Shown: positions 2,092-18,800 of the stretch, in pieces
Layout of the letters: the number at the start of each line of letters is the position of its first letter
How positions within the stretch are numbered: the stretch's first letter is position 1
IMG/VR virus record: IMGVR_UViG_3300020436_000111
Coordinates: 1-22,055 of that record
Length of the DNA stretch: 22,055 nt
Strand: one strand, 5' to 3'
From: a virus
Notes under the pieces: model-generated
Database searches by the model: none
What the model was told of the DNA's origin: nothing
Seen by the model: only the letters and a program-made list of their open reading frames with translations
Made by a program: the position numbers and the translations under genes

Positions 2092-3321
2092 ATGACTTTT
2101 GATTTGAACATGCACGTTACTCGATTGCTCCGCGATGAGCCCTTCTTCGCTGAGTTGTCGCGGAAGATGGATAAGCGGTCCAGCAAGACCATTCCTACTG
2201 CTGGTGTTCGGGTTAACCCTGATACTGCCCAGTTCGAGATGCTTTACAATCCTGAGTTCTTTCAAGGACTTACAGACGCCCAGCGAAAGGGTGTCCTAAT
2301 TCACGAGTTCTACCATTGTGTGTTCCAGCACGTCACTGAGCGTAAGCCTGACAATGTGGATCCCAAAGAGTGGAACATCTGCGCTGACCTTGCTATCAAC
2401 GATATCATTGGGGCTGTTAACCTGCCTGATGGCTGCTGCGTTCCCGGCGTTGGTCCGTTCGCTGAGTACCCTCACAAGAAGACTGGTGAGTGGTATGTCG
2501 ATTTCCGTAAGAAGCTCCGTGACGAGAACGAGCAGGAAGGTGGCAATGGCGAAGGTCAGGAAGGTGCTGGTGAGCCCGGAGAAGCCGGTGGAAAACCCAA
2601 TGGAAACGAGGGGTTAGGAGAGGGCGATGGAGCCAACTTCGATAGCCACGATGACTGGGGTGACAACGGCGGTGCTGATGCTGCTACCCAAGAGATTGCC
2701 AAAGAGCGCCTTAAGGAACATTTAAAAGATGCTGTCCAAGAGGGCACTAAGAAAGGCTTCGGGTCGGTTTCGGCTGAGGTAAGAAAAGATATTATTGAAA
2801 AGCTGACTCCCAAGGTTGATTGGAAAAAGGTGCTTCGATACTTCGTTAAGACCTCTACCAGAGCCCATAAGAGCAGTACGGTAAAGCGGGTTAACCGACG
2901 ATACGCTTACATCCATCCCGGTCGCAAGGTAAATCGGACGGCTAATATTGCAGTCAGCATCGACCAGAGTGGGTCGGTTAGCGACCAAATGCTTGCAGCG
3001 TTCTTCAGTGAGCTAAACAAGCTGAGTGAGCTAGCAGAGTTCACGGTTATTCCCTTCGATACCAAGGTTGCCGAGGATAAGGTCTACGTCTGGAAGAAGG
3101 GTGAGAAGAAGAAGTGGGAACGAGTGCTCTACGGAGGTACCTGCTTTGAGGCTCCTACTGACTATGTGAATAAAGGAAATTTTGATGGTCACATTGTCCT
3201 GACTGACATGTGCGCTCCCAAGCCTAAGAAGAGCCGTGTGCAGCGCATGTGGATGACTGATGGGTACAATGCTAAGAACCCTTACTTCAAAACCAACGAG
3301 AAGGTGATTGCTGTCGACTAA
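2092..3321 (+). CDS. DUF2201-like metallopeptidase / VWA protein
   Basis: 409 residues in three parts. The N-terminal domain carries HEFYH at residues 71-75 (HExxH zinc motif) after a short YNPEFF segment, as in the DUF2201 putative metallopeptidases. A low-complexity linker of Gly, Glu, Asp and Asn runs from about 147 to 190. The C-terminal domain is VWA-like, with DQSGSVS at 291-297 (MIDAS DxSxS), followed by YGGTCF and LTDMCAP as likely further MIDAS residues. VWA proteins with MoxR ATPases form metal-dependent remodelling pairs, and the adjacent upstream MoxR gene supports this. The start follows AAGGAGG about 15 bases upstream, further than usual. Its own promoter lies at 2036. Substrate unknown. 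Confidence 0.85.
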   Translation: MTFDLNMHVTRLLRDEPFFAELSRKMDKRSSKTIPTAGVRVNPDTAQFEMLYNPEFFQGLTDAQRKGVLIHEFYHCVFQHVTERKPDNVDPKEWNICADLAINDIIGAVNLPDGCCVPGVGPFAEYPHKKTGEWYVDFRKKLRDENEQEGGNGEGQEGAGEPGEAGGKPNGNEGLGEGDGANFDSHDDWGDNGGADAATQEIAKERLKEHLKDAVQEGTKKGFGSVSAEVRKDIIEKLTPKVDWKKVLRYFVKTSTRAHKSSTVKRVNRRYAYIHPGRKVNRTANIAVSIDQSGSVSDQMLAAFFSELNKLSELAEFTVIPFDTKVAEDKVYVWKKGEKKKWERVLYGGTCFEAPTDYVNKGNFDGHIVLTDMCAPKPKKSRVQRMWMTDGYNAKNPYFKTNEKVIAVD

Positions 3322-9318: not shown

Positions 9319-9350
9319 TTGACAAATGCCCCTAAATGTGAGACTATAAT
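9319..9350 (+). promoter_or_regulatory. likely promoter with long spacer
   Basis: TTGACA (9319-9324) and a consensus TATAAT (9345-9350) are 20 bases apart, longer than usual. TATAAT is followed by ATGTAAG, the same word that follows the promoters at 834 and 2036, and then by the leader of the gene at 9385. The long spacer means activity may depend mainly on the -10 box or an activator. Confidence 0.6.
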
Positions 9351-9384: not shown

Positions 9385-9849
9385 ATGGAACTCAATAAAG
9401 CAATCAAGAAAATCGAAAAATACCTCGGCACTAAAATCGAGCGACCAGATGATATTGACGGTCGCGGTCGATTCTATGTCGAAGTCGATGGCTATGTAGG
9501 CTCTTTCTATGCTAGCAAGAAGTGGGGTTCTGAAGACGAGTATGAAGCCAGCAACTGGCATATTCGCGCTGTCAACGATCACAGCGATCCTCACACTGAT
9601 TATTACGCTGGCTCCTTCCGTGACAACTGCTCACAGTGGCTGCACGCTCTTAAGCCACCAGCCCCAAAGTTTCCAGTCGGATGCCTTGTCCGAGGCAAAG
9701 CCAATAAGCGAGCGACCCGTCAGGGCTATGCTGGTAAAGTTGGTCTTGTTACCTCGGCTGGCGCTTACTGTCGCATCGACTGGATTGGCGAAGAAGCTCC
9801 GCGATACGGGATGAGTTATCCTGAGCGCGATCTTGAGTTAGTTTCGTAA
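9385..9849 (+). CDS. unrecognised 154-residue phage protein
   Basis: ATG 9385 lies seven bases after AAAGGAG. The first part, about 100 residues, is rich in aromatic and acidic residues (FYVEVDGYVGSFYASKKW, DHSDPHTDYYAGSFRDNCSQW). The C-terminal part (FPVGCLVRGKANKRATRQGYAGKVGLVTSAGAYCRIDWIG) reads like a KOW/SH3 barrel, the same broad class as the small proteins at 7158, 10863 and 11322. It has its own promoter (9319). Codon use is more GC-rich than that of its neighbours. Function unknown. Confidence 0.65.
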   Translation: MELNKAIKKIEKYLGTKIERPDDIDGRGRFYVEVDGYVGSFYASKKWGSEDEYEASNWHIRAVNDHSDPHTDYYAGSFRDNCSQWLHALKPPAPKFPVGCLVRGKANKRATRQGYAGKVGLVTSAGAYCRIDWIGEEAPRYGMSYPERDLELVS

Positions 9850-9863
9850 TCGCCAACTGAGCG

Positions 9864-9925
9864 CTCTTTTTGCTCTTTTTCTTTTTGAGATACTATTTAT
9901 TATGCTCGCAAAAGAGCAAAAGGAG
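9864..9925 (+). promoter_or_regulatory. ribosome-site-sequestering hairpin with internal late-type promoter
   Basis: The arm 9864-9879 pairs with 9910-9925 along 16 consecutive positions with a single G-U pair. The 3' arm includes the AAGGAG ribosome site of the gene at 9932. The 30-base loop contains GATACTATTTAT (9889-9900), the motif repeated in three other gaps. A transcript entering from upstream would hide the ribosome site, whereas one starting just after the motif would lack the 5' arm. Confidence 0.75.
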
Positions 9926-9931
9926 AATATA

Positions 9932-10126
9932 ATGAGTGCATCAGAAAGTTTAAAGAAAATTATAGAGTGTCTCTGCGACGCAGAGAAGGACGCAGAAAAG
10001 CACGATCGTGGTGTCGATGCAGCAGGAGCTAGGCTTCGTAAGAAGTTGCAGAATGTTGTTGTGTGTTGCAAAGAGATGCGTGCTGAAGTTCAAGCAGATA
10101 GAAACGCTCGAAAATCAGATAAGTAA
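9932..10126 (+). CDS. histone H1-like DNA-binding protein
   Basis: 64 residues from ATG 9932 (AAGGAG upstream, inside a hairpin). The pattern SLKKIIECL...DRGVDAAGARLRKKLQ...KEMRAEVQADRNARK matches the small histone H1/Hc1-like proteins found in marine phages and some bacteria (K-x-x-AAG-[TA]-R-[VL]-RK-x-[ML]-Q...E-[IM]-R-x-E-[VI]-Q). These are thought to bind DNA through their basic residues. The two adjacent cysteines (VVCCKEM) are unusual. The hairpin and internal motif predict expression only late, which fits a DNA-compacting or virion role. That link is inference. Confidence 0.65.
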   Translation: MSASESLKKIIECLCDAEKDAEKHDRGVDAAGARLRKKLQNVVVCCKEMRAEVQADRNARKSDK

Positions 10127-10164: not shown

Positions 10165-10866
10165 ATGAAGGAAATTGAACTAATAAAAGAAAGATTACCA
10201 CAAATCAAAAAGAAGGGATTCATTGCTTCTTTAAGAAAAGGTAATACAGGAATTGGTTACACTTTTGAGTGCTTGTTCGGTATTGAAGAAAACAATGACT
10301 CAGGCGCAGATCTTAATGGTAAAATTGAATTTAAAGCAGCACGAAAAAACCGCTCATGCCGTACATCAAGTTTTACCCAAGCTCCGATTTGGCATTTTGA
10401 AATCAGAGATATCATAAAAAAATATGGTAAACAACATCCAGAAGATTTAGATCGTGTAAACTGGTACCCATCTCTAAATAACGATGTTAATCCATCAGGA
10501 CTAATCTTAAATATTCAGGATGGGGAGCTTCAGATAGTAGACCAAAAAGACGGAAACGTTTTGGGCTCTATTCCTATCTCTGTTTTACAGTATCGTTTTC
10601 GACAAAAATTAGACAAGCTACTTTTAGTATATGCTGATACAAAAAAGATTGACGGCGTAGAATATTTTCATTATAATGAGGCTTACATGTGCCAGTTTCC
10701 AAGCACTGATAGTATTGAATCGCTTATTAATGAAGGAAAGCTGGTTGTTGAACCTCGTTGTCATCTATTTAAATCAACAGGTAAAGTTCGTGACCGTGGC
10801 GTTGCATTTAGGATGAAAGGCGAGTATCTTAAAGATCTTTATTCAAGCGTGGAAAAAGTGATATGA
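10165..10866 (+). CDS. MvaI/BcnI-family endonuclease
   Basis: 233 residues. The N-terminal third carries the family pattern: GFIASLRKGNTGIGYTFE (18-35), LFGIEEN, then GADLNGKIEFKAAR with the likely catalytic D49, E55 and K57 (PD-(D/E)xK type), then SSFTQAPIW. The C-terminal region RCHLFKSTGKVRDRGVAFRM fits the substrate-binding end of MvaI/BcnI (MutH-related) enzymes, which cleave or nick short double-strand sites. No methyltransferase is in the window, so the host or phage DNA must be protected another way, or the enzyme acts as a nickase or in host DNA breakdown. The ribosome site is weak (GGA). The stop overlaps the next start (ATGA). Confidence 0.75.
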   Translation: MKEIELIKERLPQIKKKGFIASLRKGNTGIGYTFECLFGIEENNDSGADLNGKIEFKAARKNRSCRTSSFTQAPIWHFEIRDIIKKYGKQHPEDLDRVNWYPSLNNDVNPSGLILNIQDGELQIVDQKDGNVLGSIPISVLQYRFRQKLDKLLLVYADTKKIDGVEYFHYNEAYMCQFPSTDSIESLINEGKLVVEPRCHLFKSTGKVRDRGVAFRMKGEYLKDLYSSVEKVI

Positions 10867-11048: not shown

Positions 11049-11054
11049 GTTATG

Positions 11055-11090
11055 TATAGAGAATACTATTTATAGCATGTTCTATAGGAG
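11055..11090 (+). promoter_or_regulatory. late-type motif with weaker hairpin near the ribosome site
   Basis: AATACTATTTATA (11062-11074) is the third copy of the intergenic motif. TATAGA (11055-11060) pairs with TCTATA (11081-11086), which abuts and overlaps by one base the AGGAG site (11086-11090) of the gene at 11099. The stem is only 6 bp of AT-rich pairs, so sequestration would be weak. Confidence 0.5.
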
Positions 11091-11098
11091 TATTTTTT

Positions 11099-11317
11099 GT
11101 GTCAAACAACAAGACCAAAGAACTGAGTCTTTCAGTATGCAACGACGATCATCCACCAGTATGGTTTTATGATGATCATTCTTGTCCAGTATGTGCGGCT
11201 AAAATGCTTATCGAAGAATACGAGCTAGATTTACAAGATATGAGAGAGCAACTTCTAGATCTTGAAACAGAAGTAGAAAGATTACAAAGTACGATTTCAG
11301 ATCTAGAGAGTAACTGA
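11099..11317 (+). CDS. zinc-finger plus coiled-coil protein
   Basis: 72 residues, GTG start nine bases after AGGAG. The N-terminal half has spaced potential metal ligands C14, H18, H27, C29 and C32 (CNDDHPPVWFYDDHSCPVC), a rubredoxin-knuckle-like CPVC. The C-terminal half (residues 37-72) is a strongly heptad-like acidic coiled coil. Short Zn-knuckle/coiled-coil proteins are frequent in tailed phages, and their role is not known. Confidence 0.65.
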   Translation: MSNNKTKELSLSVCNDDHPPVWFYDDHSCPVCAAKMLIEEYELDLQDMREQLLDLETEVERLQSTISDLESN

Positions 11318-12205: not shown

Positions 12206-12226
12206 TTTCTGCTCATCAATTCTTAG

Positions 12227-12283
12227 AAGCCTCCTTTTGTACGTCAAAGCACTATTTATAGTGTGACGCATTTTGGGAGGCTT
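12227..12283 (+). promoter_or_regulatory. ribosome-site-sequestering hairpin with internal late-type promoter
   Basis: AAGCCTCC (12227-12234) is an exact complement of GGAGGCTT (12276-12283). The 3' arm is the ribosome site of the gene at 12289. Nested inside are GTC/GAC (12243-12245/12265-12267) and the palindrome CACTAT-TT-ATAGTG (12250-12263), which contains the ACTATTTATA motif. It has the same design as 9864-9925. No other feature is seen in 12206-12288. Confidence 0.75.
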
Positions 12284-12288
12284 TACTT

Positions 12289-12660
12289 ATGCGATTAAAG
12301 AAGAATATTAAAAAGAACAAGATCAGAAATCTTGTCAAAGAACAGTTCAATAAAGAATACAAGATTCACAAAAGAAATCTTGCAATCAAGCAGGTCATTA
12401 AAGAAGAGGTCGAGCGTGGCTTTAATGAAGGCGCAAACGACGATGAGTTCGAGATGATGGACAGGCTCGTTGATGCACTAGGTCCTCAGAAAACCCTAGA
12501 AGAGTTAATTCAGGGGCTTCCATCTGATACTGTTAGGGAGATGTTATCATACATTGCACGTAATTACGACATCCCCATGGAGATGGACGAAGAAACTAAA
12601 CCACACGAGGCAGATCGCACCCAAGGTCGCGATGTTCCCGAAGATAGGATCCGAAACTAA
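12289..12660 (+). CDS. virion-type protein with two tag-like peptides
   Basis: 123 residues. The N-terminal 45 residues are basic and hold two copies of a short amphipathic motif: NKIRNLVKEQFNKE and LAIKQVIKEEVERG, the latter matching the peptide that starts the next four MKI proteins. The rest is acidic and helical (EMMDRLVDALGPQKTLEELIQGLPSDTVREMLSYIARNYDIPME), a pattern I have seen in structural-region proteins of marine T4-like phages. The ribosome site GGAGG lies in a hairpin with an internal late-type motif, so late expression is expected. The stop overlaps the next ATG (TAATG). Function is inferred: head core or packaged protein. Confidence 0.6.
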   Translation: MRLKKNIKKNKIRNLVKEQFNKEYKIHKRNLAIKQVIKEEVERGFNEGANDDEFEMMDRLVDALGPQKTLEELIQGLPSDTVREMLSYIARNYDIPMEMDEETKPHEADRTQGRDVPEDRIRN

Positions 12661-12770
12661 TGAAGTTTTTACACAGATTAAAAAACTTATTCAATAAATC
12701 GCATTGTTGCTGCTGCTGTGGGTGCTGTGGTTGTCAAAACTGCCTCGGTAAATGCAACCCGGAGGCATAG
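12660..12770 (+). CDS. 36-residue cysteine-cluster microprotein
   Basis: ATG 12660 overlaps the previous stop (TAATG), so it is probably coupled. The N-terminus is basic and helical (MKFLHRLKNLFNKSH). Residues 16-32 contain ten cysteines (five in a row, then GCCGC, QNC, LGKC), followed by a four-residue tail. TGT and TGC codons are mixed, with Gly, Gln, Asn and Lys codons interspersed, so this is not a simple repeat. The next gene's GGAGG lies in its last codons. It could bind Zn, Cu or an Fe-S cluster like a metallothionein, or be acylated. No family recognised. Confidence 0.6.
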   Translation: MKFLHRLKNLFNKSHCCCCCGCCGCQNCLGKCNPEA

Positions 12771-12771
12771 T

Positions 12772-13011
12772 ATGAAAATTAGCAAGAAACAATTAAAACA
12801 AATTATCAAAGAAGAGCTACAGCTAGAGAGAAAGGGTATGTTCTTAGAGGTGCTTGAAGAGGCTATCATGGCGACCGTTCAGAGAGAATTCGCCTCTTAT
12901 AACTGGCCTCCTGAACAATGGGCTCAGTTAAAGGCTGACATTCAGAAAAATGGTTTGGACCTTACTCAGCAAGTTTTAGCACTAATTGAACAAAAGGAAG
13001 CCAGTGAATGA
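12772..13011 (+). CDS. tagged small protein 1 (MKI...IIKEEL N-terminus)
   Basis: 79 residues after GGAGG, starting MKISKKQLKQIIKEELQLE. The following three genes start with nearly the same peptide but then differ completely, which indicates a shared targeting or processing signal rather than gene duplication. The remainder is helical with WPPEQWAQLKADIQKNGLDLTQQVLALIE. It ends with an ATGA overlap into the next gene. I infer a virion-internal protein; see the finding on the tag. Confidence 0.65.
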   Translation: MKISKKQLKQIIKEELQLERKGMFLEVLEEAIMATVQREFASYNWPPEQWAQLKADIQKNGLDLTQQVLALIEQKEASE

Positions 13012-13208
13012 AAATTGCAAAGAAACAACTTAGTCGGATCATCAAAGAAGAGCTTATGAAAGAAGTCGAAGAGTCTCCAGAAATACATGACGACGAGACA
13101 AAGACTATTCTTAAAGATTTAGTGAATAACATGCAAAATAAATTTAACGTCTCGGAAGAGGATGCCCTAGAGGCTATATCCAAGATGCTCCGATACATGG
13201 AAAAATAA
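13008..13208 (+). CDS. tagged small protein 2
   Basis: 66 residues beginning MKIAKKQLSRIIKEELMKE, start overlapping the previous stop (ATGA). The rest is acidic and helical (SPEIHDDETKTILKDLVNNMQNKFNVSEEDALEAISKMLRYMEK, read in segments 28-48 and 49-66). No homology to its neighbours beyond the N-terminal peptide. Function unknown; packaging with the head is inferred. Confidence 0.65.
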   Translation: MKIAKKQLSRIIKEELMKEVEESPEIHDDETKTILKDLVNNMQNKFNVSEEDALEAISKMLRYMEK

Positions 13209-13223
13209 AAGGATTTTTATAAA

Positions 13224-13448
13224 ATGAAAATTACAAAAGCAAAACTCAAACAAATTATTAAAGAAGAGCTTGAATTAACTAATGAAGATAAACAAGTTTC
13301 CAGCATGATTAATTCCTTAGAGCAGATTGGAGACGAAGTAAGTAAAGCTCATAAAATGGCAGGCGACCCAAACATGATTCAAAGCCTAGAGATGATTGAT
13401 GGTCTAATCACAAAACTGCATGACGAGATGAGTGATCTTCTTATGTAA
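13224..13448 (+). CDS. tagged small protein 3
   Basis: 74 residues beginning MKITKAKLKQIIKEELELT, with AAAGGA upstream. After the peptide the protein is an acidic helical hairpin (SSMINSLEQIGDEVSKAHKM, then MIQSLEMIDGLITKLHDEMSDLLM). Together with its neighbours it forms a cassette of unrelated small proteins behind the same peptide. Confidence 0.65.
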   Translation: MKITKAKLKQIIKEELELTNEDKQVSSMINSLEQIGDEVSKAHKMAGDPNMIQSLEMIDGLITKLHDEMSDLLM

Positions 13449-13460
13449 TCGGAGGTTGAT

Positions 13461-14327
13461 ATGAAAATCACCAGAAAGCAACTAGAAAATTTAATCCGCG
13501 AAGAACTCCAGATTGAGAAGCTCGTTGGAAAAGGAATTGCCAAAGGTCTTATTCAAGATCTAGAAGAATTAAACCGCACTCTTGGTCTGTTTGATGCTAC
13601 TTCTTTGCAAAAATTTCCAGATGTTCATCAAGAGCTAATTCAGTTGGCTGGCGACGTCTCGAACAAATTGAGATATATCAAAGATTCTAAAAGACAGTTC
13701 AGGGAAGGTCAGGGGTCAAACCAAGAAGAGATAAATAAAATTTTAGATCTCATAGAAAATGATCCCGAATTTCAAATCCTAGGACAATTTAAAGACAAGT
13801 TCTTAAAATATACGCAAAGCGGAGGTGATCCACTTTCCGCTCTAGAGGCTGCATCTCCAGAAAGGCGTCCGGTGCAAAAGGCGCTTGAAAAATTAAGAAC
13901 AGCGATCAGACCATCGGGACCAAAGACTCCCATGGGTATGCCTGTCATGGAAAACAAATCCAAAAGAGATTCTTTAAAAAAAATCATTTTAGAAGAGCTA
14001 CAAGAGGTTTGTGGTATGTCACAGGATGCAGCAGCCGTAACTCTTCCAAAAGACCATTCTATGGACTCTCAAGAGGGTGAGAGCGTCATGGCAAAAGGAT
14101 CTCTTCATCACGCGATTAAGTCGGCTCAACAAATCGATTCTGTTCTCGGTGATGACGTAGATCTGCCGGAATGGGTCGAAGCAAAACTTACAAAAGCTGC
14201 TGACTATCTGGGTATCGTGAGTGACTATCTTACTTACAAAGATTCCCGAGGTGCAATGCCCGCAGCATCCATGGACGTACCAAAACCTGTCCAGCCTCCG
14301 CTTGACCCTCCTAAGTTCGGCACATGA
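13461..14327 (+). CDS. tagged two-part virion-type protein
   Basis: 288 residues after GGAGG, beginning MKITRKQLENLIREELQIE. A first helical region ends near residue 150. A Pro/Met-rich linker leads to a second, internal copy of the tag (SLKKIILEELQEV, 171-183). The last domain contains HHAIKSAQQIDSVL and LPEWVEAKLTKAADYLGIV (235-253), a block (LPEWV-x-[AS]-K-[IL]-TKA-x-DY) that I know from structural proteins of marine T4-like phages. The internal tag suggests that two separate modules are delivered or released from one chain. The C-terminus is Pro-rich. Confidence 0.65.
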   Translation: MKITRKQLENLIREELQIEKLVGKGIAKGLIQDLEELNRTLGLFDATSLQKFPDVHQELIQLAGDVSNKLRYIKDSKRQFREGQGSNQEEINKILDLIENDPEFQILGQFKDKFLKYTQSGGDPLSALEAASPERRPVQKALEKLRTAIRPSGPKTPMGMPVMENKSKRDSLKKIILEELQEVCGMSQDAAAVTLPKDHSMDSQEGESVMAKGSLHHAIKSAQQIDSVLGDDVDLPEWVEAKLTKAADYLGIVSDYLTYKDSRGAMPAASMDVPKPVQPPLDPPKFGT

Positions 14328-14697: not shown

Positions 14698-14723
14698 AAA
14701 GCTCCCTTCGGGGGGCTTTTTTT
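14698..14723 (+). terminator. rho-independent terminator
   Basis: A 9-bp stem AAAGCTCCC/GGGGGCTTT with one G-U pair, closed by a TTCG tetraloop and followed by seven T (14717-14723). It ends the transcript of the gene at 14424 and isolates the tubulin/polyprotein unit downstream. Confidence 0.92.
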
Positions 14724-14748
14724 GTTTCAGTTGCTTATTTGGGTTTCA

Positions 14749-14761
14749 GATACTATTTATA
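14749..14761 (+). promoter_or_regulatory. late-type promoter motif of the tubulin unit
   Basis: GATACTATTTATA (14749-14761) is the best copy of the intergenic motif. It lies 26 bases after a strong terminator and before the tubulin gene, so some promoter is needed here, and no sigma70 -35/-10 pair is visible. This is the clearest evidence that the motif is itself a promoter. Confidence 0.6.
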
Positions 14762-14777
14762 CCTAGGAGACTGGAAC

Positions 14778-14840
14778 TTGAATAGAGCCTTTAAACAGCA
14801 ATTTACCAATGTCTCCCAAGGGAGATATTACAATGAGTGA
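14778..14840 (+). CDS. possible 20-residue leader peptide
   Basis: A TTG at 14778 lies eight bases after AGGAG (14765-14769), followed by 20 codons (MNRAFKQQFTNVSQGRYYNE) ending in TGA at 14838-14840, five bases past the tubulin ATG at 14833. Translating it would open the hairpin at 14812-14825 that hides the tubulin ribosome site, giving translational coupling. TTG starts occur at several other genes here. The protein itself has no recognisable features. Confidence 0.4.
   Translation: MNRAFKQQFTNVSQGRYYNE
14812..14825 (+). promoter_or_regulatory. hairpin covering the tubulin ribosome site
   Basis: TCTCCC-AA-GGGAGA is a perfect palindrome; the mRNA would fold as CTCC/GGAG with a four-base loop. 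The 3' half is the Shine-Dalgarno site of the ATG at 14833. Unlike the hairpins at 9864 and 12227, both arms lie downstream of the promoter motif, so it acts on every transcript. Confidence 0.6.
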
Positions 14841-15885
14841 ATTTGATAACGATTTTGATTTTATTGACCACTATGGTTCAGACATGGAGGTTGCCAATGA
14901 AGAGCAACTACCAGACAATGAAGCACCCTCAGCAATCAACTGTGGATTTGTTGGAGTTGGTGGAGGTGGTGGAAAACTCGCCAAAGCATTTTTAGACCTT
15001 GGGTTCAACAAGACTCTTCTAGTTAACACAACAGAGAAAGACCAGCCAGATGGTGTTGATGAGGCACACCTAGTTTTGATTCCTGATGCCGATGGCGTTG
15101 GTAAAGACGTTGAGTTCGGAAAGAAGGTACTTAAGGATAACAGTGCAGTTGTTGAGGATGCCCTGAGAACTAAGCTAGGCAAGGTAGACTGGCTTTTTGT
15201 GTTCGCAGGTGGTGGTGGCGGTACAGGCTCTGCTAGTGGCGCTTTACATCCAGTTTTTGAGCGTTATTTAGAATCAATCGAAGCAGATGGATGTGTTGTT
15301 CATGTTGTTACGGTGCCTTCCGCACAAGAATCGCTCAACAGCACCATCAAGAAAAATGCTAATACGCTTTTAAATGACGTATCTGAAGCTCCACATATTG
15401 TGTTGAGCAACGAGAAGCAATTACAACTGCTAAGAGGTAAGGTTGGAATGCTGAATATGTATTCCCTAGCAAACTCGACATTTGCAAAGCTGTTTCACCA
15501 AGTTTTAAAACTTGCAAACGAGCACTCTCCAATTCAGACTTTTGATTCTAAAGATTTGGATCGATGCCTCAAAACCAAAGGGCGAACCTTTGTTGGGTCG
15601 ACCGTGGTTCCAGACCCAAGTATCGCTAGCTTGGGTGCAACTATTCTTCAGAATTGTTTGAAGAGATCGCCGTGCCCGCCTCCGCGTGGTAAATCGCAAA
15701 CTGGTTCTCTCCTTCTGGTTGTTACGCCAGAAATGGCGGATGACCCTGAAATCAGCAAGCATCTTGAGGCTGCTATTTCATACGTCGGTTCCAGAACCTC
15801 GACTCTGTTTTCGGGCGTATATGTCAGAGACAACTTGCCCGGTCTTATTGCGATAATGACCATGAACGGAGTTGATTGGGAATAA
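14833..15885 (+). CDS. tubulin/FtsZ-family GTPase
   Basis: 350 residues. An acidic N-terminal extension (about 35 residues) precedes the GTPase domain. GFVGVGGGGGKLAKAF (38-53) matches the first nucleotide loop of FtsZ/TubZ. GGGGGTGSASG (126-136) is the tubulin signature. TVPSAQESLN follows. FDSKDLDRCLK (237-247) stands in the T7-loop position with D238, D241 and D243 as candidate catalytic acids. The end MNGVDWE is short, without the long acidic tail of PhuZ. Phage tubulins (PhuZ in phiKZ-like phages, TubZ in plasmid-like phages) form filaments that centre or move phage DNA. Whether this one does the same is inference. Start 14833 follows GGGAG; ATG 14809 is an alternative. The stop overlaps the next ATG (TAATG). 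Confidence 0.85.
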   Translation: MSEFDNDFDFIDHYGSDMEVANEEQLPDNEAPSAINCGFVGVGGGGGKLAKAFLDLGFNKTLLVNTTEKDQPDGVDEAHLVLIPDADGVGKDVEFGKKVLKDNSAVVEDALRTKLGKVDWLFVFAGGGGGTGSASGALHPVFERYLESIEADGCVVHVVTVPSAQESLNSTIKKNANTLLNDVSEAPHIVLSNEKQLQLLRGKVGMLNMYSLANSTFAKLFHQVLKLANEHSPIQTFDSKDLDRCLKTKGRTFVGSTVVPDPSIASLGATILQNCLKRSPCPPPRGKSQTGSLLLVVTPEMADDPEISKHLEAAISYVGSRTSTLFSGVYVRDNLPGLIAIMTMNGVDWE

Positions 15886-18800
15886 TGCTGGAAATTAAGA
15901 ACCTTAGCGAAAAAGATCTGAAAGAGACAGAAGCTATTTTAAAAAAGTTTGTGCCTTACGCACAAAAACAGCTTGGGTATGACCAACCTGTTAAGTTGAT
16001 GTTTATTTCAGATCCTGATAACGCTACAAACCCTCTGGGTAAAACGGCACACTATCAACCGGGAACAAAAGTTGTCACAGTGTATGTTGATGATCGACAC
16101 CCCAAAGATATTATGCGAAGCGTGTCACACGAGCTTGTTCATCATGCACAAAATTGTAGAGGAGAATTTGACAAAACTCCTGCGATGGGTGATGGATATG
16201 CTCAAGCTGATGAGCACTTAAGAGAAATGGAAAGAGAAGCCTACGAAAAGGGAAATCTTATATTTAGAGACTTTGAGGACGGTTTAAAGACAAACGATAA
16301 AGAAATGACTATTTATATTGACGATTCTTCGGGCGAAGCTCCCGCTAATCTCTATGAGGAAAAAAAAATGAAAAAAACTAACTTTGGATTGAATTCGCCC
16401 CACGCAAAATGGCAGGCGTTTTTGCTTAATGAGCGAACTGATAAAAGAAAAGCAGCTTGGATGCAGGCATTTCAAAATGCTGCTGGAAATCCACAGCCAC
16501 CTCCCCGAGATTTCTGGGATACTGCGACCTATCTTTACAGCAAAGGCGACGATCCAGTAGAAGCTGGTAAACAGTATGCTGCTAATAATATGAACGAGGC
16601 ACTTCCCGACCACCTAAAAAAGCACTTTCGTGATGACGGGTCTTCAGTTCATTCACCACAAGTTAAAGACGTTACCCCTCCCGGCTATGGACCTGATAAT
16701 CGCGGAGATAGGAATGTAGACATAATCGGATCGCTCGTGAACCAGCATGGTTTCATGAATGTCCGAGAACCACTTGAGCAGATGGGCTTTACAGTAGACT
16801 TTGTTACTGAACCTCTCCCCATGTATAACCTCACGAAAGATGGTGTGAAGTATGCAGCACTAAACAAGAAGTATGTCGAAGATCCTGACCTTGTTGTCGG
16901 AGATACTGCGATTGGAGCGATGAACGAGAGCATTCAAGAAGGCTTGACCGTTGATGGAAAGCAACTTAACGTTGGCGATATGGTTCAGGTCACTGGTGGT
17001 GGTGCTCGCGGCGCTACTGGAGAAATTATTGAATTCGCAGAGGGAAAAGCCGTTGTTCGTCTTGAATCCGACGCAGATAGGCGATTGTTTGGTCAAGCTA
17101 CCGACGAGATTATTGTAAGAGGCGAACATCTTGCTCTTATGGGTGGCATGAACGAACAAGGCGATGATAGAGAATTTAATGTTGGCGATGAAGTTATAGC
17201 TAACGGCTACCCCGGTTATATCACTGATTTAAGTATCCCCGGAATGGCAACGGTGAAATTAGGTAGAGGGGAGACTACCGTATCAACCAAATATGTGCAT
17301 AAGAAAGACGACAAAGACAAACAGATTAAAGAAATGTATGGAGAGGATGAAGATTACTTCATGGAGCTTGAGAAAGAATTCCCGTTCCTGTCCAAAGCAG
17401 TCAAGGCTGGCGAGGTCCCTGAAGAAGTCGCGGCTGAGATTGCCAAAGAATATGGAGACAAAGATGAAATGCCAAGCGGAGAGCAACTCAAAGAATCTCT
17501 TCGTCGCGTTGTCAAAAGAGTCTTGATGGAGAAAATGGATCCTGTCGGAAAAGAAGATGGTGACGTCGACAACGACGGTGACGAGGATTCGTCTGATAAG
17601 TATCTCAAGAAGCGTCGTGAGGCTGTTGGCAAAGCGATGCAAAAAGAAAGCCAAGGCGGCGAACAATGGTATGAAGTATACGACGAAGAGTCTGGTAAAT
17701 CATTAGAAATCTGGGCTTCTTCTATGGAAGAGGCAGAATACAAAAGCGAAGAAATCGATTATGATGAATATCGAGATGGACAAGCAGTCATGGCAACAAA
17801 AAATATGGCTGAAGAACTCAAAGGCGGTCAGAAAAAGCTAGATACTGACGGCGATGGTGATATTGGCGCAGACGATCTTGCCAATCTTCGAGATAAAAAA
17901 AAAGCTAAAAACGAGGTCTACAGCAAAAGAGCAGTATTAGAAGCTGTTATCCGAAAGACTCTCGTTGGTGAAGAAATTGACCCTAGTCAATTCCCAAATC
18001 CATTACCTCCCGGCATGAAAGGGGAAGACTTTTTATCTAAAGGCATGAGAGATGGAAGTAAGGGTGATGATGTAGTGCAAGCCGGTGCAAAATCAATCGC
18101 TGCACAAGACGCAAAACCCTCTCAAAGTGCAATTTATCTTGGAAAGGCTCTTGGCATGGCAGTTGGTGGGGTAAAGGGCGGAAATATTAACGCTCTTATT
18201 TCAGCAGACAATTATATTCTAGACGGACACCACAGATGGGCTGCAACAATGTTTGCAGACCCTAGTGCTGCGATATCTGGAACTGGAATTGGGATGCCAA
18301 TGACAGAATTAATTCCAGTTTTAAGAGCGGCTGGTGATGCTTATGGTAATGCCAGACGTGGTGAGCCTTCCGGGGGAGACGTGAATATATTTAAAGCATC
18401 TCTTGAAGATGCTAAAAAGGCTATTGAGAAAATTGATGGCGGAACTAAATTTACTAAACCCGGAGCGGCGGGACAGTGGCTTCAAAGTATTGGTGGAGAG
18501 CAAGAGCTTGCAAAAAGACTCGATGCAATTAAAGCAAAAGGAGGAGAAGCAGCTTCTGCACCGCCAAGAAACGAAATGCCAGTTATTGATGCAGACAAAG
18601 GTGACGATAAGAACGTTGCCATGAGATTAAACAAAGGCGCAATTGATGTAAAGCCGCCATACGCAGACGACCCAGATGCGGGAAAGAAAAAGGAGCCAAG
18701 AGCTATGGAAGAATCAAGAAAAAATAGAGTCCATAATGAGAAATATGATCTTTTAATGGAAAGAATGTTGGGAATTAAACCAATCAGCCCCCTAAGTAGC

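Follow-up and report, generated by a model that had tools for sequence, protein, structure and literature searches.

In phage T4, genes e, soc, 49 and I-TevI carry leader hairpins that hide the Shine-Dalgarno site (SD) in early-type RNA (review PMC3014915). The T4 relative Aeh1, which has a divergent gp55, uses a different late promoter, CTAAATA, beginning at -12 (PMC1524935). Production of chlamydial Hc1 in E. coli leads to DNA compaction and to reduced synthesis of DNA and protein, according to works cited in PMC12619734. The DNA analysed here (the window) spans 22,055 bases from the record of an uncultured virus, and its identified genes all lie on the + strand. An Hc1-like gene in it is probably subject to a translational timing lock of the T4 gene e type, combined with a different late promoter.

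The Hc1 gene and the hairpin in its leader

The elements of the locus are the following.
9319..9350, + strand: sigma70-like promoter TTGACA / TATAAT of the upstream gene, read from the sequence; proposed source of early read-through
9385..9849, + strand: upstream gene, function unknown; 14 nt separate its stop from the 5' arm
9859..9875, + strand: weak terminator-like stem with a T tract behind it, overlapping the 5' arm (-4.7 kcal/mol, z -0.6); a rival role for the arm
9864..9879, + strand: 5' arm of the SD-burying hairpin, CTCTTTTTGCTCTTTT
9892..9900, + strand: ACTATTTAT, the putative late-promoter motif, within the loop; transcription predicted to begin near 9905 by analogy with Aeh1 CTAAATA (PMC1524935)
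9910..9925, + strand: 3' arm of the hairpin, with the SD AAGGAG (9920-9925) within it
9932..10126, + strand: Hc1 histone H1-like gene, 64 aa (Pfam PF07432, E 5e-12), the proposed target of the lock

The product of the gene at 9932 had been called histone-like in an earlier, sequence-only reading, and Pfam agrees: the Hc1 match scores 45.9 bits against a cut-off of 23.5 and covers nearly the whole domain. An alternative in-frame ATG lies at 9902, and we take ATG 9932 as the start because of its SD spacing and the start of the ortholog. The spacer of the upstream promoter is 20 in the window, which is longer than optimal, and 17 in the ortholog. Because this promoter is followed, up to the hairpin, by no strong terminator and only the weak stem, early RNA could run through into Hc1. 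Given what chlamydial Hc1 does to DNA and to DNA and protein synthesis in E. coli, early silencing of the gene is plausible.

Several neighbouring features are recorded here in their own right. Directly 3' of Hc1, positions 10165-10866 hold a full-length restriction endonuclease gene of the MvaI/BcnI family (Pfam E 2e-37). Its counterpart in the ortholog contig is 70% identical, and no methyltransferase to partner it was noticed in the vicinity. The leaders at 2092 and 9385, like those of relatives L181-L188, have promoters of early type with TTGACA and TATAAT/TGTAAT, often followed by GTAAG just before the SD. For the gene at 2092-3321, PHROGs gives HNH endonuclease (phrog_1314), a label that looks wrong, and Pfam a metallopeptidase plus a VWA-like domain (DUF2201).

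Positions 9864-9879 and 9910-9925 form 16 uninterrupted pairs, 15 Watson-Crick and one G-U (T9867-G9922), across a spacer of 30 nt, and the arms were recovered by an independent search. The SD is the 3' end of the 3' arm and lies 6 nt ahead of ATG 9932, and ACTATTTAT is located in the loop, so that the 16-base pairing with one G-U, the identity of the 3' arm with the SD of the 9932 gene and the late motif in the loop, all claimed in the sequence-only reading, were found again. The hairpin exceeds chance: with G-U pairs allowed and loops of up to 60, uninterrupted stems of at least 16 pairs number 2 in the window as compared to a mean of 0.23 in whole-window shuffles. The complementarity is partly compositional, with a pyrimidine tract opposite the purine-rich SD, and when the 50 nt upstream were shuffled the duplex averaged about -15 kcal/mol, against the -22.4 observed (p 0.02).

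That shuffled upstream tracts already come so far would suit an explanation that keeps the late promoter but gives the hairpin no regulatory effect: a pyrimidine tract, perhaps the remnant of a weak terminator, would face the SD by accident. A terminator-like stem and T tract are indeed present at 9859-9875; however, that stem is weak, none is seen in the ortholog (-3.7 kcal/mol, z 0.15), and we consider this explanation unlikely. Alternatively, the hairpin might act mainly on RNA, attenuating the upstream unit or serving as an RNase III or stability element, with burial of the SD a side effect. The long uninterrupted stem, the upstream stop so close to the 5' arm and the T-rich run in that arm would fit such a role, but no T tract follows the 3' arm (after 9925) in the window or the ortholog, and the 3' arm is the SD or start region at three sites rather than an arbitrary spacer; we regard it as very unlikely. 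For the same lack of a T tract the large hairpin was itself rejected as an intrinsic terminator, the weak inner stem being the sole terminator-like element. Rfam returned no match at threshold; its preQ1-II and miRNA matches were due to chance, the preQ1-II riboswitch candidate scoring 24.4 bits against a gathering threshold of 47 with several consensus pairs broken.

To return to the proposed lock, the fold model gives RNAs that start at 9650 to 9862 an SD unpaired probability of 0.00-0.01 when they end by 9936 and of 0.00-0.08 when they end at 9945. With 9935-9945 in the fold, a slipped register plus an outer helix is favoured over the 16-bp register, with the SD still buried. When the RNA includes at least 43 nt of the coding region and the pair span is left unlimited, the model mostly picks other pairs and frees the SD in the long RNA; with the span limited to 100 nt, the SD remains buried. 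RNAs running from 9904 or 9908 to 9945 have the SD 0.95-0.98 open, and for RNA 9905-9990 the value is 0.78. The folding check put forward with the sequence-only reading thus came out as expected, with the SD buried in read-through RNA and free from starts past the motif, apart from the one long-context fold. As in the gene e arrangement, the SD and/or start codon is predicted to be paired in the hairpin of the read-through RNA, and RNA from the late promoter would start 3' of the 5' arm.

The motif in the loop as a candidate late promoter

Relatives of the window were taken as 80 loci with a homolog of its tubulin-like protein (the best 80 of at least 92 in IMG/VR). In these loci and the window together, the coding strand carries 49 copies of ACTATTTAT and the opposite strand one, and within single large contigs the split is 15:0, 9:1 and 6:1. 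After removal of duplicates there are 41 sites, as compared to 8.6 per permuted motif, and 26 of them (63%) lie 8-60 nt ahead of the SD and ATG of an ORF, whereas only 40 of 345 permuted-motif sites (12%) do so. One gene behind the motif is weakly matched to tail sheath in PHROGs, and in another contig the motif also precedes a homolog of this gene. The T4 capsid protein gp23 was found in 9 of 12 large relatives and a divergent gp55-like sigma in 8 of 9; the latter is not visible in the 22-kb window, which is too short to show its own gp55. The relatives hence present two features of gp55-dependent late promoters, an encoded gp55-like sigma and a motif placed before late structural genes (the tail sheath match and its homolog).

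On this evidence, ACTATTTAT most likely serves this phage lineage as its late promoter, as had been read from the window alone, with the late timing argued from T4. Alignment with the Aeh1 promoter CTAAATA, counted from -12, would put the late start of Hc1 near 9905. The T4 consensus TATAAATA is absent from the + strand of the window and precedes a start at only 2 of 30 sites in the relatives, and the 9892 signal was therefore rejected as a late promoter of the T4 consensus. A further explanation makes ACTATTTAT a processing site or RNA element, cleavage at which would yield the same late 5' end; that the motif is itself paired in RNA at 11065 and 12251 is in keeping with this. However, most motif sites in the relatives precede start codons without any hairpin, and the motif stands ahead of structural genes in phages with a gp55-like sigma, and we hold processing to be extremely improbable in comparison with the promoter reading.

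Other occurrences of the motif deserve record. The site at 2049 (CCTATTTAT) was rejected as a further lock, since TTGACA and TGTAAT flank it with a spacer of 17 nt and sigma70-like promoters are seen at several homologues of the gene there. At 16308-16316, ACTATTTAT falls inside a 1041-aa ORF, and at the same place in the L005 and L008 homologues; in the more distant L045, L048 and L063 a separate gene starts just behind the matching motif, and the 1041-aa ORF of the window may be a fused gene that contains a late start within it. On the reverse strand of L151, tandem late motifs (ACTATTTATATATAAT repeated, ~771-800) lie directly before a fibre-like gene.

Predicted SD burial in the ortholog and at other motif sites

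One close Hc1 ortholog contig was found (L004 and L008), in which Hc1 is ~70% identical, the gene order around it is the same as in the window and the motif likewise precedes it. Searches with neighbouring genes for further Hc1 orthologs gave the same contig or unrelated layouts only, and in cultured phages there was no similar DNA, no Hc1 homolog and no tubulin homolog. The fold of the ortholog leader again has the motif in the loop and the SD buried (-17.4 kcal/mol; p 0.003 against shuffles). None of 38 upstream segments swapped in was as strong, the leader has a z of -2.9, burial was stable in all contexts tried, and a stricter, partner-specific test gave p 0.064. When the pairs of the window are mapped on the ortholog, 7 of 16 can form, one of them via a double change, and 9 are broken, the SD there being held by a helix in a shifted register.

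The sequence-only reading had suggested that compensatory changes in related phages should conserve both arms. Burial of the SD is indeed kept, but pair-by-pair covariation, with its single double change, is not seen, and the broader claim of a lock on Hc1 like those of T4 e, soc and 49 divides in the same way: its sequence-testable parts stood and pair-by-pair conservation failed. Hiding of the SD thus appears, in these predicted folds, to be conserved while individual pairs are not, which agrees with selection on accessibility rather than with covariation.

Three further hairpins accompany the motif in the window.
11054..11102, + strand: second hairpin, with motif 11065-11073 in its 5' arm and SD AGGAG (11086-11090) and GTG 11099 in its 3' arm
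12226..12284, + strand: third hairpin, AAGCCTCC / GGGAGGCTT, around motif 12251-12259; it buries SD GGGAGG before ATG 12289
14735..14785, + strand: fourth hairpin, around motif 14752-14760, upstream of the tubulin-like gene, the SD of which it leaves uncovered

Three of the five ACTATTTAT sites of the window (9892, 11065 and 14752) fall in stems of at least 14 pairs, which cover 1.7% of the window (P 4e-5), and at 9892, 11065 and 12251 the SD of the following gene falls within the stem. The hairpin at 12251 is interrupted but much stronger (z -5.6; p 0.004 or less) and stable in all contexts; 0 of 1000 shuffles were as strong. The short RNA of site 11065 is also partly folded by prediction (SD 0.27 open), and a strong terminator (14698-14719) lies upstream of the 14752 hairpin. 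In the close clade (window, L008 and L005; nine sites), SD pairing to upstream sequence reaches 0.79 as compared to 0.56 in shuffles (p 9e-4; p 0.004 without the 9892 site), and SD burial is stronger at motif sites than at 65 further genes in the same contigs (p 0.002), these recurrence tests sharing sites and so not being independent of each other. At 49 sites in more distant relatives the corresponding values are 0.34 and 0.35 (p 0.34), with no trend, and for this reason we claim the lock for the close clade only. The lack of SD burial at the distant late sites would also favour an incidental hairpin, but the ortholog leader and site 12251 go beyond what composition gives, and motif sites differ from other genes in the same contigs.

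Of the genes behind these sites, that at 14809-15885 encodes a Tubulin/FtsZ-like protein. IMG/VR marine contigs contain at least 92 relatives of it, the best 80 being 58-86% identical, but none of 50,697 cultured-phage records gave a match. Between motif 14752 and the tubulin-like ATG 14833, a possible TTG leader ORF (14770-14840) overlaps the start (ATGAGTGA); a stem TCTCC-CAAG-GGAGA lies over the SD of that gene and, with the leader ORF, may provide translational coupling. The stretch at 12289-14327, behind late motif 12251, holds a series of small genes that open with a shared KITKKQLKQIIKEEL-like segment.

Proposed mechanism and comparison with known systems

We propose that RNA from the upstream early-type unit, carrying both arms, would fold over 9864-9925 and hide the Hc1 SD, and that little histone-like protein would then be made early. 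Late in infection, a gp55-related phage sigma would start transcription at ACTATTTAT in the loop, near 9905, and the late RNA, without the 5' arm, would have its SD open and be translated. Analogy with the described systems supplies the start site, the late timing, the read-through from the early unit and the magnitude of the effect on translation. More tentatively, since we rate it as somewhat doubtful, insulation of late genes within early-transcribed stretches could be the rule in this marine T4-related clade, through an SD-burying hairpin around the late promoter where no terminator precedes and through a terminator elsewhere, so that the late set, including the histone-like compactor, would stay silent until the late sigma appears.

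If the lock is real, the T4 lysozyme-type arrangement would not be confined to cultured T-even phages: it would also exist in a marine lineage whose late promoter differs, where it would guard a gene whose early expression could be harmful. Phage Hc1-like histones would then be predicted to act late, as in genome packaging or compaction, a timing left open in the literature (PMC12619734). ACTATTTAT is in addition a candidate late-promoter consensus for large uncultured T4-like phages.

Among described phages, the jumbo 'moraphages' (PMC12619734) are, like the present phage, large tailed phages of aquatic settings that encode a protein of Pfam PF07432; the available part of that paper leaves the function of their Hc1-like proteins open and gives no promoter or RNA structure. 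Aeh1 (PMC1524935) is likewise a T4-related phage with a divergent gp55 and a shifted late consensus that begins with C, but CTATTTA in the window, a predicted promoter, differs from CTAAATA at two positions. The closest parallel is T4 gene e (also soc, 49 and I-TevI), where, as here, the SD lies in the 3' arm and the late promoter, putative in our case, lies within or beside the hairpin, and where transcription of early type from upstream and a short late RNA without the 5' arm match what we predict for Hc1. By the same measure the duplex scores -22.4 kcal/mol here and -9.4 kcal/mol in T4 e, the lock here being a prediction from sequence. Unlike gene e, the Hc1 locus has ACTATTTAT in place of the T4 late promoter TATAAATA, its cargo is a histone-like gene, and the layout occurs at at least three neighbouring late-type genes.
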